Below are positions 11,328-17,161 of a stretch of 64,000 nucleotides of DNA, piece by piece; position 1 is the first letter of the stretch; every line of letters starts with the position of its first letter. The notes beneath the pieces are model-generated. The model ran no database searches, had not been told where the DNA came from, and worked only from the letters and a program-made list of their open reading frames with translations. The translations under genes and the position numbers were made by a program. Source of the stretch: Paenibacillus humicola (lineage in GTDB: Bacteria; Bacillota; Bacilli; Paenibacillales; Paenibacillaceae); assembly GCF_028826105.1 (NCBI RefSeq), contig NZ_JAQGPL010000001.1, positions 5,172,501-5,236,500 on the forward strand, given 5' to 3'.

Positions 11328-11358
11328 TTGATGGTGACGCTGCGTCATTGTTTACAAT
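11328..11358 (+). promoter_or_regulatory. MerR-type promoter with 19-bp spacer
   Basis: -35 TTGATG (11328-11333), exactly 19 bp, then -10 TACAAT (11353-11358). The spacer contains the 13-bp dyad TGACGC-T-GCGTCA (11335-11347), and a second palindrome CATTGT-TT-ACAATG (11346-11359) overlaps the -10. The over-long spacer with a dyad inside is the hallmark of promoters that MerR proteins untwist to activate. It faces the MerR-ankyrin gene whose start is 54 bp downstream. Confidence 0.75.
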
Positions 11359-11411
11359 GAACATATGGGGATCATGGACATGACGACTTTAATGCCAAGG
11401 AGAGGATGCCT

Positions 11412-13109
11412 ATGCCGGAAAGCGACAAGCGGTATTACCGCACCGGAGAATTCGCCGCCATGGCCGGCGTGACCAAGCGGTCCCTCCAGTATTACGACCG
11501 CCTCGGCCTGCTGAAGCCCGGCCGCCGCAGCGATTCGGGCCAGCGCCTTTATGCGGAGGAAGACCTGGTGCGCCTGCAGCAGATCGTGACCTTGAAGTTT
11601 ATCGGCTTCTCGCTGGGGCAAATCCGCAATATTTTCGAAGCGCGCGACATCGATCTGGCGGCGCTTCTGGCCATGCAGCGGGAATGGGTGGAGGCGAAGC
11701 TGCGGCATCTGCGGGCAGCCGCCAAGGCGATCCGGGATGCGCAGCGATTCATCGAGCGTGGGGACGGCTACAAGGCGTCCACTTTCCAAAAAATTATCGA
11801 GGTGATTGAAATGCAGGCAAACCGCAACTGGCTGGACGAATTCATCGATGCAGCCACCTCCGGGCGCGAGCCGGCGGCAAGGGCGATTCTCGCCGCAAAT
11901 CCGGGGCTGCCCGGCGAGAGCATTCACGCCGCCGCCATCGTCGGCGACGTCGAAGCGATCCGCGCCATGCTGAAACGGGATGCGGCGCTGGCCACAAAGC
12001 CCGGCGGTTCGGAACAAGGCGAGCCGATCCTCCTGTTATGCTTCTCCTGTTTCTTGCACGCATCCGAAACCGGCGGGGACCGCTTTACCGAAGCCGCGCG
12101 GCTGCTGCTGGAGCACGGGGCGGACCCGAACGCGTTCATTCCGCAAAAGGACGATCCGTACGAACGGAACCTCAGCGCCCTGTACGGCGCGGTCGGCATC
12201 GCGGGCCATGCCGGCGTGGCGGAGGTGCTGCTCGCGGCGGGCGCGAATCCGAACGACGGCGAATCGATCTACCACGCCACCGAATTTCCCGGCTTTGTTT
12301 GCCTGGATCTGCTGTTTAAATACGGCGGGGACCTCAATGCGACGCCCGCCTTGTTCCACAAGCTCGATCTCGACGACGAAGCCGGCGTCCGATGGTTCAT
12401 GGAGCACGGCGCCGACCCGCTGCAGCTTCTCGGCCCGCTGCGCAATACGCCGCTTCATTGGGCCGTGTACCGCGGACGTTCCGCAGCCATCCTGAAGCTG
12501 CTGCTCGAGCACGGGGCGCCGATCGACGCCCGGCGGGCCGACGGCAAGACGGCGTATAGGCTGGCCGTCCGCTTCGGTCATACCGACGCAGCCGAGCTGC
12601 TGCTCGAACACGGAGCGGATGCCGGACTGGAACCGTCCGACCGGTTCTTCGGCGCCTGCGCTTTGGCGGACGAAGCGGGCGCCCGCGCCGTTCTCGCCGA
12701 AGATGCGTCGCTTGCTGCCGCCTTATCCGGGGAGGCGCAGGAGATGCTGATCGAATTCGTCGATCTCGGCAAAACGGACTCCGTCCGGCTCCTGCTGGAT
12801 CTCGGGTTCGGCCGCCATTCGACAAACATCAGGGAAACGGGCAATGCGCTCCATCACGCCGCCTGGTTCGGCCGGCCCGATCTCGTCCGCCTGCTCATCG
12901 AACGCGGGTTTTCGCTGACGGACAAGAACGAATACGGCGGCACGCCGCTCGGCAGCGCGATCCACGGCTCGATTCACTATAGGCAGGCCGGCGGAAATCA
13001 CGCCGCCGTCGCCCTCGCGCTTCTTCAAGCCGGCGCCGAGGTTCCGCCGAAAGCGGACGGGAGCCGCGAGGTATACGAGGTGCTGCGGCGGCACGGGGCG
13101 TCGGAATAA
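11412..13109 (+). CDS. MerR-family regulator fused to ankyrin repeats
   Basis: Start at ATG 11412, nine bases after AAGGAG; the ATG at 11406 lies too close to that site. 565 residues. Residues about 7-75 are a MerR winged helix (YRTGEFAAMAGVTKRSLQYYDRLGLLKPGRR, broken here for brevity), followed by the dimerisation helix to about residue 120. From about 140 to the end run repeated ankyrin units, e.g. AARLLLEHGADPNAF, VAEVLLAAGANPND, AILKLLLEHGAPIDARRADGKTA and DLVRLLIERGFSLTDKNEYGGTPL. Typical MerR proteins carry small-molecule domains, so an ankyrin sensor suggests that a protein partner is sensed (inference). The promoter at 11328-11358 predicts autoregulation. Confidence 0.88.
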   Translation: MPESDKRYYRTGEFAAMAGVTKRSLQYYDRLGLLKPGRRSDSGQRLYAEEDLVRLQQIVTLKFIGFSLGQIRNIFEARDIDLAALLAMQREWVEAKLRHLRAAAKAIRDAQRFIERGDGYKASTFQKIIEVIEMQANRNWLDEFIDAATSGREPAARAILAANPGLPGESIHAAAIVGDVEAIRAMLKRDAALATKPGGSEQGEPILLLCFSCFLHASETGGDRFTEAARLLLEHGADPNAFIPQKDDPYERNLSALYGAVGIAGHAGVAEVLLAAGANPNDGESIYHATEFPGFVCLDLLFKYGGDLNATPALFHKLDLDDEAGVRWFMEHGADPLQLLGPLRNTPLHWAVYRGRSAAILKLLLEHGAPIDARRADGKTAYRLAVRFGHTDAAELLLEHGADAGLEPSDRFFGACALADEAGARAVLAEDASLAAALSGEAQEMLIEFVDLGKTDSVRLLLDLGFGRHSTNIRETGNALHHAAWFGRPDLVRLLIERGFSLTDKNEYGGTPLGSAIHGSIHYRQAGGNHAAVALALLQAGAEVPPKADGSREVYEVLRRHGASE

Positions 13110-13260: not shown

Positions 13261-13408
13261 TCCGCTCTTGTCCGGGACTGCGAAACCACAAAAAGATTCC
13301 GCTCTTTCCCGGGATTTGCGAGGCCGCAAAAAAATGCCGCTCTTGTCCGAGGCAGCGAGACCGCAAAAAAACGCTCTTGTCCGGGACTGCGAAACCGCAA
13401 AAAAATGC
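13261..13408. repeat. four imperfect 35-39-bp tandem repeats
   Basis: Units start at 13261, 13298, 13337 and 13372. Each has the form (TC)CGCTCTTGTCCGGG followed by ACTGCGAAACCGCAAAAA. The GC-rich half and the A-run alternate, and each unit contains a small TGCGAAACCGCA hairpin. The array lies immediately beyond the iol operon terminator. Confidence 0.85.
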
Positions 13409-13435
13409 CGGCGCCGGTTGAACCGGCGTCGGCAT
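13398..13435 (-). terminator. terminator of the inositol operon
   Basis: On the minus strand ATGCCG-A-CGCCGGTT pairs with AACCGGCG-C-CGGCAT (one mismatch), followed by seven T. It lies 58 bp beyond the iolG stop codon and is the strongest terminator in this half of the window. Confidence 0.92.
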
Positions 13436-13492: not shown

Positions 13493-14515
13493 TCAGACGC
13501 CGGCAGCGGCAGCGGCTTCCTCCAGCCGGACCGGGCGTTTCTCCCGCAGCGAGATGCCCGCCGCGTACGCGATCAGCTCGGCCTGGAAGCCGTCGTTCGC
13601 ATCGACCGGCACGGGCGTGCCGTCAGTCACCGCACGCACGAACGCTTCGAGCTCCCGCACGTACGCTTCCTTATAACGCTCCAGGAAGAAATAAAGCGGC
13701 TGGTCGCGGCGCGCCCCGTCCTGCGTGACAATCTCCGCCGTGCTGGGCGTATCGTTCCGGATCGAAATCGTCCCTTCGGAGCCGAACGCCTCGACGCGCT
13801 GGTCGTAATAATGGGCCTGCCGGCTGTTGATCACGACGCCGAGCGCGCCGCTCCTGAATTTCAGCGTCGTAATCGCCGTGTCGATATCGCCGCATTCGGC
13901 GAACACGGGATCGACCAGAACCGTCCCCTGGACGTAAACCTCCTCGACTTCGCTTCCGGTCATAAACCGGGCCAGGTCGAAATCGTGAATCGCCATGTCC
14001 GCGAACAGGCCGCCGGAGCTCTTGATGTAGGCGGCCGGCGGCGGCGCCGGATCGCGCGAGGTGATTTTCAGCATATGCAGGGACCCCGCCCGTCCTTCCC
14101 CGAGCAGCTCGCGGATCCGGCTCATATTGTGGTCGAACCGGCGGTTGAAGCCGAGCTGAAATTTGACCCCGGTATCCAGCAGCAGGCGGCGGATGCGTGC
14201 CGTCTCGGCAACGCTCAGGCTGACCGGCTTCTCGCAGAAAATCGGCTTCCTCGCGCGCACGGCTTCCTCGATGATTTCGACATGGGTATCCGTCGGCGAA
14301 CAGATCAGGACGGCTTCGACGGCCGGATCGGCGAGCAGCTCCCTGTAATCCGCCGTTACCCTGCCGTACCCGCCGGCTTCCGCCCACTCACGGGTCTGTT
14401 CGACGAACGGGTCGGAGATCGCCGCGATTTCCGCGCCGCCAAGCCGCTTCAGGTTCTCGGCGTGAAGCCTGCCGATCCGCCCGGCGCCGATGATGCCCAC
14501 TCCCAGTTTGTGCAT
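13493..14515 (-). CDS. iolG: myo-inositol 2-dehydrogenase
   Basis: This encodes 340 residues of the Gfo/Idh/MocA fold. The NAD-binding motif GVGIIGAGRIGRLHAENL starts at residue 5, catalytic Lys96 is in the EKPVS motif, and the conserved dyad region reads DMAIHDFDLARF near 172-183. It oxidises myo-inositol to scyllo-inosose, the first step of the pathway, in the cytoplasm. It is the last gene of the operon, 43 bp after iolA. The family also includes scyllo-inositol and glucose dehydrogenases, so the exact polyol is inferred from the neighbours. The strong terminator follows. Confidence 0.88.
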   Translation of the reverse strand: MHKLGVGIIGAGRIGRLHAENLKRLGGAEIAAISDPFVEQTREWAEAGGYGRVTADYRELLADPAVEAVLICSPTDTHVEIIEEAVRARKPIFCEKPVSLSVAETARIRRLLLDTGVKFQLGFNRRFDHNMSRIRELLGEGRAGSLHMLKITSRDPAPPPAAYIKSSGGLFADMAIHDFDLARFMTGSEVEEVYVQGTVLVDPVFAECGDIDTAITTLKFRSGALGVVINSRQAHYYDQRVEAFGSEGTISIRNDTPSTAEIVTQDGARRDQPLYFFLERYKEAYVRELEAFVRAVTDGTPVPVDANDGFQAELIAYAAGISLREKRPVRLEEAAAAAGV

Positions 14516-14558
14516 GTCCGTTTACGCTCCTCTTCCATACGTTCGTATAAGACTTTGA

Positions 14559-16013
14559 TTAATAACGGGCAACGACCATTTTTTTGCGGGTATAAAATTC
14601 GACGCCGTCCTTGCCGTTCACGTGCAGATCGCCGTAAAACGATTTTTTATAGCCCGAGAACGGGAAGAAGGCCATCGGCGCGGGAACGCCGACATTAATG
14701 CCGAGCATGCCGGCGTCGATCGTATCGCGGAACTCGCGGACCGCCGCGTTGCTCGTCGTATACAGGCACGCGCCGTTGGCGAATTCCGAGCGGTTGGCGA
14801 TTCCGATCGCGTCCGCCAGGCTGTCCGCCCGCACGATCTGCAGCACCGGAGCGAAAATTTCGTCGTTCCAGATCGTCATGCCCGGCTTCGCGCGATCGAA
14901 AATCGTCGGCCCGAGAAAGCTGCCCGCGCCGGAAGCCGCTGCCGCGGCGCGCCCGTCGAGCACAAGCTCCGCCCCTTCGGCAACTCCTTTCTCGATATAA
15001 CGAATCGTCCGCTCTTTGTGCGATTCGCGAATAACCGGCCCGAGGAAATTGTCCTTCACGCTGCCGTCGCCGATCGTCAGCTCGCCGGCCGCCGCCGCAA
15101 GCCGCTTCACCAGCTCGTCGCCGACCCCGCCTACGGCCACGACGACCGATGCGGCCATGCACCGCTCGCCGGCGGAGCCGAACGCGGCATTGACGATTTC
15201 CTTTACCGTCAGATTCAGATCCGCGTCCGGCAGGACGATCGAATGGTTTTTGGCGCCGCCGAGCGCCTGCACCCTTTTGCCATGGGATGCTGCCGTCTTG
15301 TACACGTATTCCGCTACGGGCTGCGAGCCGACGAAGGAAATCGCCGCAATATCGCGATGCTCCAGCAGACCGTTCACCACGTCGCGGGAGCCGTGCACGA
15401 CGTTAAACACGCCGTCCGGCAGCCCGGCCTCTTTCAGCAGCTCGGCCAGCCGGCAGGCGAGGAGCGGCGTCCGCTCCGACGGCTTCAGCACGAAGGTGTT
15501 GCCGCAGGCGATCGCGAGCGGGAACATCCAGCACGGCACCATCATCGGAAAGTTGAACGGCGTAATGCCGCCGACGACCCCGACCGGGTAGCGGTACATG
15601 CCGGACTCCAGCCCCGTCGCGATGTCCGGCAGCACGTCGCCCATCATGAGCGCCGGCGCCCCAGCCGCGAATTCGACGCATTCGATGCCGCGCTGCACCT
15701 CGCCGTAAGCTTCGGCATAGTTTTTGCCGTTCTCCTTCGTAATGAGGCGCGCCAGCTCATCCCACGCATCGACGAGCAGCTGCTGGAATTTGAACAGGAT
15801 GCGGGCGCGCCGTGGCACCGGTACTCTGCTCCAGTCTTTAAACGCTTCCTTCGCCGCCGCGACCGCGCGGTCGACATCCGCCGCGGCCGACATCGGCACC
15901 CGGGCGATCGTCTCCCCCGTGGCGGGGTTGACGACGATATCCGTCGCGCCTGCGGAAGCTTCCTCCCATTGTCCGCCGATCCAGTTTTGCAAAATCTGTT
16001 CGTTTGCTGCCAT
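14559..16013 (-). CDS. iolA: methylmalonate-semialdehyde dehydrogenase (acylating)
   Basis: Start at ATG 16013; the long open frame upstream of it is out of keeping with the family. 484 residues, the normal size. The aldehyde-dehydrogenase marks are [33 protein letters not shown], the coenzyme-site loop [30 protein letters not shown] and the catalytic Cys in [12 protein letters not shown]. It converts malonate semialdehyde to acetyl-CoA and CO2, the last step of inositol breakdown. The 113-bp gap after iolC contains GC-rich inverted repeats that may trim or attenuate the mRNA. The alternative name is mmsA. Confidence 0.93.
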
Positions 16014-16126
16014 CGTATGACGTCCTTTCAAGGTTAATAATTTCCGTCCCGCAGCGGCTGCTGTCACCCGCACCGCCGCTCCGAGCGGCTTCCGCCATGA
16101 GACGGGCCGCGAAGGGCCCGGCGGCG

Positions 16127-17161
16127 TTAAGCCCGTTCTCCGCCGATCGTCGCGCTGACCTCGCCGGTCCAGGCATGGCTGCCGATAAACGCCTCGATTT
16201 GCGGGAGCGTCGGCATGGCGTCGGAGCAGTTGTGGCTCGAGACGACGATGGAGGCCGCCGCGCTGCCGTATTTCTGGCATTTCTCGATCGGCCAGCCCTG
16301 CATCAGGCCGTAGATGAAGGCGCCGGCAAAGGAGTCTCCCGCCCCGAACGTCTTGATGACGTTGTCCGCCGGGAAGATGCCCGCCTTGTGCCGCTCGCCC
16401 GTATTCGTGAACGCGACGGAGCCGGCGCCTCCGTGCTTGACGACGACCAGCTTCGCCCGGTGATCGAACCAGCGGCGGGCCGTCGCTTCATCGTCCTTTT
16501 CGGCAGGACCCGTCGTCAGCTCCATAATATCGAATTCCTCGCGCCCGCCGATGATGACGTCGCATTTCTCGGCGACAAGATTGCAATAAATCGACGTCTC
16601 TTCCTTCGATTTCCACGTGTAGCCCCGGTAGTCGAGATCGAAAAAAACGACGACGCCGTGCTTGCGCGCAAGGTGCAGCGCCTGAAAGACCGCTTCCCGC
16701 GACGGGCTCTGGGCGAGCGCCGTTCCCGAGATCAGCAGCGCCTTGCTGCCGCGGATATAGTCCTCGTCGATATCCCCCGGCTCCAGCTTCAGGTCCGCCG
16801 CGTTGTCGCGGTACATAAGGATGCTGCAGTCGCTCGGCGACTTGATCTCGGTAAACGCGAGGCCCGACACCGTGCCCGTCATGTCCGTAACCATGCGGCT
16901 CGTGTCGATGCCGTCCTTGCGGAAATAGTTCGTGATAAACCGGCCGAACTGATCGTTCGAAACCCGGCCGAAGAAGCCGGTCTTCGCGCCGAGCCTGGCG
17001 AGCGCGATCGTGATGTTCGCCGGCGAGCCGCCGACATATTTCGTGAAGGTGATCGTCTCCTCCATCGGCCGGTTGATTTCGTTCGCATTCAAATCCATGC
17101 AGGCGCGGCCGAGGCCGATAAAATCCAGCTCTCGCCCCTGCGGAAACTCGATCGTAAACAT
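16127..17161 (-). CDS. iolC: 5-dehydro-2-deoxygluconokinase
   Basis: This encodes 344 residues of the PfkB/ribokinase fold. The N-terminal signature [19 protein letters not shown] and the sugar site [17 protein letters not shown] are typical of IolC; the ATP and anion-hole motif with catalytic Asp is [16 protein letters not shown]. It phosphorylates 2-deoxy-5-keto-gluconate at C6. The product needs the aldolase IolJ to be split, and no iolJ is found in this window. It is 33 bp downstream of iolB. Bacterial homologues sometimes carry a fused aldolase domain; this copy does not. Confidence 0.93.

Follow-up and report, generated by a model that had tools for sequence, protein, structure and literature searches.

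Which signal does a MerR-type regulator read when a long array of ankyrin repeats, a protein-binding module, stands in the place of its ligand domain, and how would such a gene be switched? The question arises from one gene in a 64,000-nucleotide stretch of the Paenibacillus humicola genome (the window). Our answer, to which we give somewhat better than even chances, is that the gene is a self-regulating one-gene MerR switch built like TipA, with ankyrins replacing the TipAS domain and with two products.

The gene (11406..13109, forward strand; an ATG at 11412 could alternatively be the true start) encodes a protein of 567 residues, as judged from the open reading frame, Pfam and an AlphaFold2 model. 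Residues 11-79 (11436..11642, +) form the MerR winged-helix head (Pfam MerR_1; PF13411 with 8e-19 and PF00376 with 1.2e-12), followed by a coiled coil and linker helices at about residues 84-151 (11655..11858, +; low pLDDT) and by the ankyrin array at about residues 155-567 (11868..13106, +), where ankyrin families of Pfam match much of the non-head part (best 3.4e-30). The protein therefore has the features of the MerR family, a winged-helix head with a coiled-coil helix after it, as well as tandem ankyrin repeats. The preliminary description had joined the head to about 420 residues of ankyrins; the fusion is real, but the array comprises about 410 residues and begins after the coiled-coil linker. 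It does stand, as claimed there, where the relatives carry their ligand domain, and the linker resembles that of MerR-TipAS and MerR-methyltransferase relatives. The AlphaFold2 model, built on an alignment of two sequences, has a mean pLDDT of 72.6. Values are merely 40-70 over the head and the coiled coil, where a long helix is placed at residues 84-118 with low confidence, and block means are 65-94 from residue 171 onward except for residues 471-480 (51). The nature of the repeats had been left to a structure prediction, and both the model and Foldseek, in which all of the best 50 entries listed are ankyrins or DARPins, give an ankyrin fold. The TipAS domain PF07739 has no match in the window protein (Pfam, E <= 0.01). 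Just 3' of the gene, a 37-bp unit is repeated 4.1 times with 76% matches (13262-13410), and it has no other copy in the genome.

The promoter faces its own gene and can be read directly from the sequence just as it had been described. It spans 11328..11358 (+) and consists of the -35 element TTGATG (11328-11333), a spacer of 19 bp (11334-11352), and the -10 element TACAAT (11353-11358). The perfect dyad TGACGC-T-GCGTCA (TGACGCTGCGTCA, 11335..11347, +), the operator, lies inside the spacer, and a dyad within a promoter spacer of 19-20 bp is the arrangement that characterises the MerR family. MerR proteins are described to kink and under-twist the DNA at the dyad between the -35 and -10 elements (PMC9909328). 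The 19-bp layout (TTG-N22-TA...T) is found upstream of all ten fused genes, the window gene and its nine orthologues, and starts 69-94 bp upstream of the match. The full TnACG-N3-CGTnA dyad is retained in eight of the ten, and L012 and L057 have each lost one position. In an alignment of eight genes the dyad has the consensus TGACGTTACGTCA, and the promoter block stands out against poorly aligned flanks. The DNA layout as such is nearly certain.

The promoter had also been regarded as a special feature of this gene, which it is not. In 22 genomes of the genus, TTGNNNNTNACGNNNCGTNANNNNNTANNNT has 74 occurrences, spread over 21 of them, and its reversed pattern none. At 26 of the 34 sites that were examined for the downstream gene, a MerR gene follows directly. 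Five of these are ankyrin fusions, and the other MerR genes run through Pfam encode a TipAS domain, a methyltransferase or RCC1 repeats after the head, or no additional domain. With the same layout in front of all these types we rejected the reading as a special promoter; the layout is generic for this MerR group in the genus. The remaining eight sites comprise five before RibD_C (dihydrofolate-reductase-like) genes (L052 assigned by Pfam; L023, L029, L030 and L033 by likeness) and single ones before an amidohydrolase gene (L027), a GalE-like gene (L036, by eye) and a gene without clear assignment (L040). RibD_C genes with a MerR-type promoter are thus present in five genomes, including that of the window. 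Of the six exact sites in the window's own genome, five precede MerR genes, counting the present gene, and the sixth a RibD_C gene. Two further sites have one mismatch, and one of them stands immediately in front of the MerR-TipAS gene of L002. This genome has the exact 13-mer operator at two places, the other being the promoter of a MerR-methyltransferase gene.

The gene resembles the TipA class (TipAL/TipAS, including SkgA and AlbA) by its MerR head, coiled-coil linker, self-facing promoter, and start codon at the junction. The TipA class is portrayed as a minimal system that regulates itself, the roles of sensor, activator and neutraliser being filled by two translation products of one gene; the two start codons of tipA yield TipAL and TipAS (PMC7762955); AlbAL and AlbAS have been assumed by analogy (PMC6078987). 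In contrast to that class, the window protein has its ankyrin residues instead of TipAS, and the second product is predicted only. Furthermore, the ligand of TipA is an antibiotic, which is bound and neutralised, whereas that of the window protein is most likely a protein or peptide. The gene would work like TipA but falls outside the TipA class, since the TipAS domain that defines the class was looked for and is absent.

Two products are nevertheless likely, judging from the signals at the junction of head and ankyrins. A predicted internal ribosome-binding site (GAGGTGAT, 11799..11806, +) pairs with -13.4 kcal/mol with what we take to be the tail of the 16S rRNA. It is followed by a predicted start codon, Met136 (11811..11813, +), from which an ankyrin-only product of 432 residues (11811-13109) would be translated. 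Each of the ten fused genes keeps a start codon here (eight ATG, one TTG in L014, one GTG in L058), and just upstream of it all ten have a purine-rich site ending with TGAT. In nine of them the pairing energy is between -9.9 and -13.4, and none of their 96 other in-frame ATGs reaches the same strength (none of four in the window gene). In L018 the site is weak (-5.7) and two of 11 other in-frame ATGs are equal. Synonymous shuffling gives a modest signal. The strength of the real site is reached by 15% of the shuffles in the window gene and by 1.8-22% per gene, with less than 5% in only two of the ten genes. The signal is weak in each single gene and has the same direction in all ten, and the counts are not independent because the genes are related.

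The genus also encodes MerR-TipAS, MerR-methyltransferase and MerR-RCC1 paralogues, whose heads are related and whose promoters share the 19-bp TnACG-N3-CGTnA form; they differ from the window gene in the C-terminal module. For the comparison of their sites, the junction window was set after the first examples were known, and it included nine ankyrin fusions (without L018) and the TipAS types without L038. The best junction site was between -5.1 and -13.0 in 12 TipAS-type relatives and at -9.5 or better in 11 of these, L024 (-5.1) being the one without the junction site. In 14 methyltransferase-type relatives it was between -3.3 and -8.6, and none is as strong as the weakest ankyrin site. Ankyrin and methyltransferase values hence do not overlap (one-sided Mann-Whitney 4e-5, ignoring kinship). 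The internal site is accordingly shared with 11 of the 12 TipAS-type paralogues and the RCC1 one, and missing from the methyltransferase type. The methyltransferase label was given by Pfam for five of the 14 (L028, L045, L047, L074, L088) and by likeness for nine, and the TipAS label of four of the 12 (L002, L024, L041, L071) is based on weaker matches above the cut-off of Pfam. The start is placed 92 residues behind the anchor motif in the eight canonical TipAS types and 106-108 residues behind it in the long-linker types, namely L002, L041, L071, and nine ankyrin fusions.

In a tree of the heads (29 rows, including eight of the ten ankyrin fusions, without L015 and L018) the eight ankyrin heads form one clade (93/97), placed in an unresolved group with the TipAS types L041 and L071 and most methyltransferase types. 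The RCC1 head is found apart from this clade, unresolved among the canonical TipAS types. Because the ankyrin and RCC1 heads lie apart, the tree suggests two separate effector swaps. The RCC1 protein has 482 residues (L026:1542-2987, +; G006) and fuses a MerR head to RCC1 (beta-propeller) repeats, another protein-binding repeat carried by this chassis. A 19-bp promoter of the same kind faces its gene, and the junction has a candidate internal start (-10.3), although a later GTG scores equally.

Fused genes are rare. They are present in eight of 394 genomes of the family (including those of the window and L018) and in two of 104 genomes of a second family of the order, and headless genes in one genome of each. 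The search for further MerR-ankyrin fusions, which the preliminary description had proposed, thus yielded nine orthologues, all with the 19-bp layout and with proteins 53-60% identical to that of the window; one relative is from Cohnella sp. REN36, a member of the same family but of another genus. The orthologue in L018 (G039) has a TAA within the ankyrin part and the weak internal start noted above, and is possibly decaying. Outside the order, the survey of 398 genomes of the phylum, with at most three candidates scored per genome, revealed six matches besides the window's own (E <= 1e-25), all to the head alone. In line with the statement that no example has been described, we found no paper on a MerR-ankyrin protein in the open-access literature, which does not prove its absence. 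A phage or plasmid origin was rejected: the 121 viral_contigs stretches fitting a pattern contain no relatives, and not one of the 256 matching plasmid records covers 80% of the query.

A conserved neighbour or target operon was rejected as well. The six neighbours compared in the window (DoxX-like, glyoxalase-like, GFO/IDH/MocA, aldehyde-dehydrogenase-like, kinase-like, and histidine kinase) have no counterpart (E <= 1e-8) in the other 11 neighbourhoods, except the histidine kinase (25% identical, in L099). Within 3 kb on either side, clear common neighbours among the 12 neighbourhoods are found only in the two close pairs L094/L096 and L095/L097, and there is one weak match besides (L096/L099); hence there is no linked target operon. 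Beyond 3 kb, a few large families recur at variable distances. By eye, no MerR-type promoter facing the DoxX-like gene was seen. On the other strand, the MerR-ankyrin gene is followed by possible inositol-use genes (13493-17161, -), among them the GFO/IDH/MocA oxidoreductase (Pfam) and the aldehyde-dehydrogenase-like and sugar-kinase-like proteins (by eye).

L019 and L059, the two orthologues without a head, consist of the ankyrin part only. Their ATG occupies the position that corresponds to Met136 and is preceded by GAGGTG or GGAGTG (pairing -13.0 and -10.4); L019 has other possible start codons a few codons upstream. The full TnACG-N3-CGTnA dyad was not found near the headless genes in L019, L059, L100, and L103, the sole such dyad in these being about 5 kb upstream in L103. 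The family tree, which leaves out L018 and in which the Variovorax outgroup raises a long-branch warning, places the headless genes within the headed clade (95/98), although their position there is poorly resolved, and a single clade of the nine headed rows is rejected (p-AU 0.0067). An ankyrin-only ancestor that later gained the head is therefore not favoured. Because of this nesting and the lack of a nearby dyad, the headless lineages have apparently lost both the head and the operator but retained the ankyrin protein. This in turn suggests that the ankyrin part is probably useful alone and able to start at the Met136 position. About 0.7 kb downstream of its headless orthologue, L103 (G516) has a MerR gene that is TipAS-like by eye, so that a separate regulator is possible there and might replace the lost head.

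Standalone bacterial ankyrin proteins (L060-L070, L072, L073, and Variovorax QRF61231.1) have similar arrays, about 29-38% identical where aligned, but unlike the window protein they have no MerR head. That of Variovorax paradoxus (L105:2833-4500) is 33% identical over most of the array, and this ankyrin arrangement thus exists beyond the phylum of the window. Three of 13 loci have the standalone ankyrin gene directly beside a MerR gene, which is either of the MerR-methyltransferase type or a short form that has the same dyad (L104, which is the wider L070, G518; L067; L068), and the other ten have no MerR gene within about 1.5 kb.

Taken at the level of sequence, the head, the dyad, its spacing, the ankyrin fold and their conservation are well established, and ankyrins were apparently swapped into a type of self-switching, antibiotic-binding regulator. 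In the switch that we propose, a dimeric MerR head would sit on the dyad in its own promoter, inside a spacer that is over-long at 19 bp, and the ankyrin array would bind a ligand, most likely a protein or peptide. Binding would cause the head to untwist the DNA and to turn on its own gene, as untwisting is the established MerR mechanism. The mRNA would then give rise to two in-frame products, the full regulator and, as predicted from the conserved signals, the free ankyrin protein starting at Met136, which we infer to be a bulk binder or effector. The matching head, operator, and internal start support the TipA plan, together with the absence of a linked target. A protein as ligand is plausible by analogy with the MerR-family regulator GlnR, which has no ankyrins and in which a short C-terminal tail is involved. 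GlnR is reported to bind the feedback-inhibited glutamine synthetase (PMC9249791) and so, like the regulator proposed here, responds to a protein. With this pair already known, a protein-reading member of the MerR family is not unprecedented.

The internal signal could also be a relic of a TipAS-type ancestor, which speaks against the two-product reading. The gene would then encode one product, a plain self-regulating MerR protein whose ankyrins sense a partner and tune the level of the regulator itself, with the inherited start signal idle. Promoter and head demand nothing further, the TipAS types L041 and L071, which are among the closer heads, have the same GAGGTGATG-type site, and the synonymous-codon signal is modest. 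However, the start codon is retained in all ten genes at 53-60% protein identity, the ATG having been swapped only for other starts, and the ATG of the headless orthologues sits at the same place, so that we regard a single product as unlikely.

It is improbable that the protein is a tether instead of a sensor, a scaffold that recruits the partner it binds either to the promoter or to genomic targets unlinked to the gene. Ankyrins are generic binders and no ligand pocket is known in the window protein, but the exact operator has just its two genomic places, the looser pattern is almost confined to MerR genes in the counts given above, and the conserved 19-bp spacer favours activation by untwisting over recruitment. 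The same spacing, by favouring activation, makes it highly improbable that the head is a pure repressor silencing an ankyrin effector gene, with relief not by a ligand but for example by proteolysis of the linker. Such a role would agree with the low confidence of the linker in the AlphaFold2 model and with the repression described for MerR proteins in the resting state (PMC9909328).

Returning to the switch with two products, the MerR/TipA plan and the protein-reading GlnR are known, and the ankyrin module on such a plan is apparently new. More tentatively, and with considerable doubt, the gene could be a TipA-type sensor and sponge for a macromolecule. The full-length protein would sense a protein or peptide (e.g. 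a peptide antibiotic, a toxin, or a phage protein) through its ankyrins and thereby activate its own transcription; the ankyrin-only product from the internal start would be made in excess and capture the ligand. Protein-binding repeat domains would have been swapped onto the TipA chassis at the internal start codon, and this chassis might be a general platform because MerR-RCC1 would be a second, independent case. If true, the TipA design, with sensor, activator, and sponge in one gene, would not be limited to small drugs; its sensing module would be exchangeable for protein-binding repeats, the exchange point being the internal start codon. Bacterial switches that respond to macromolecules would have a natural template open to testing, and the built-in reporter promoter would give a route to the ligands of orphan bacterial ankyrin proteins.
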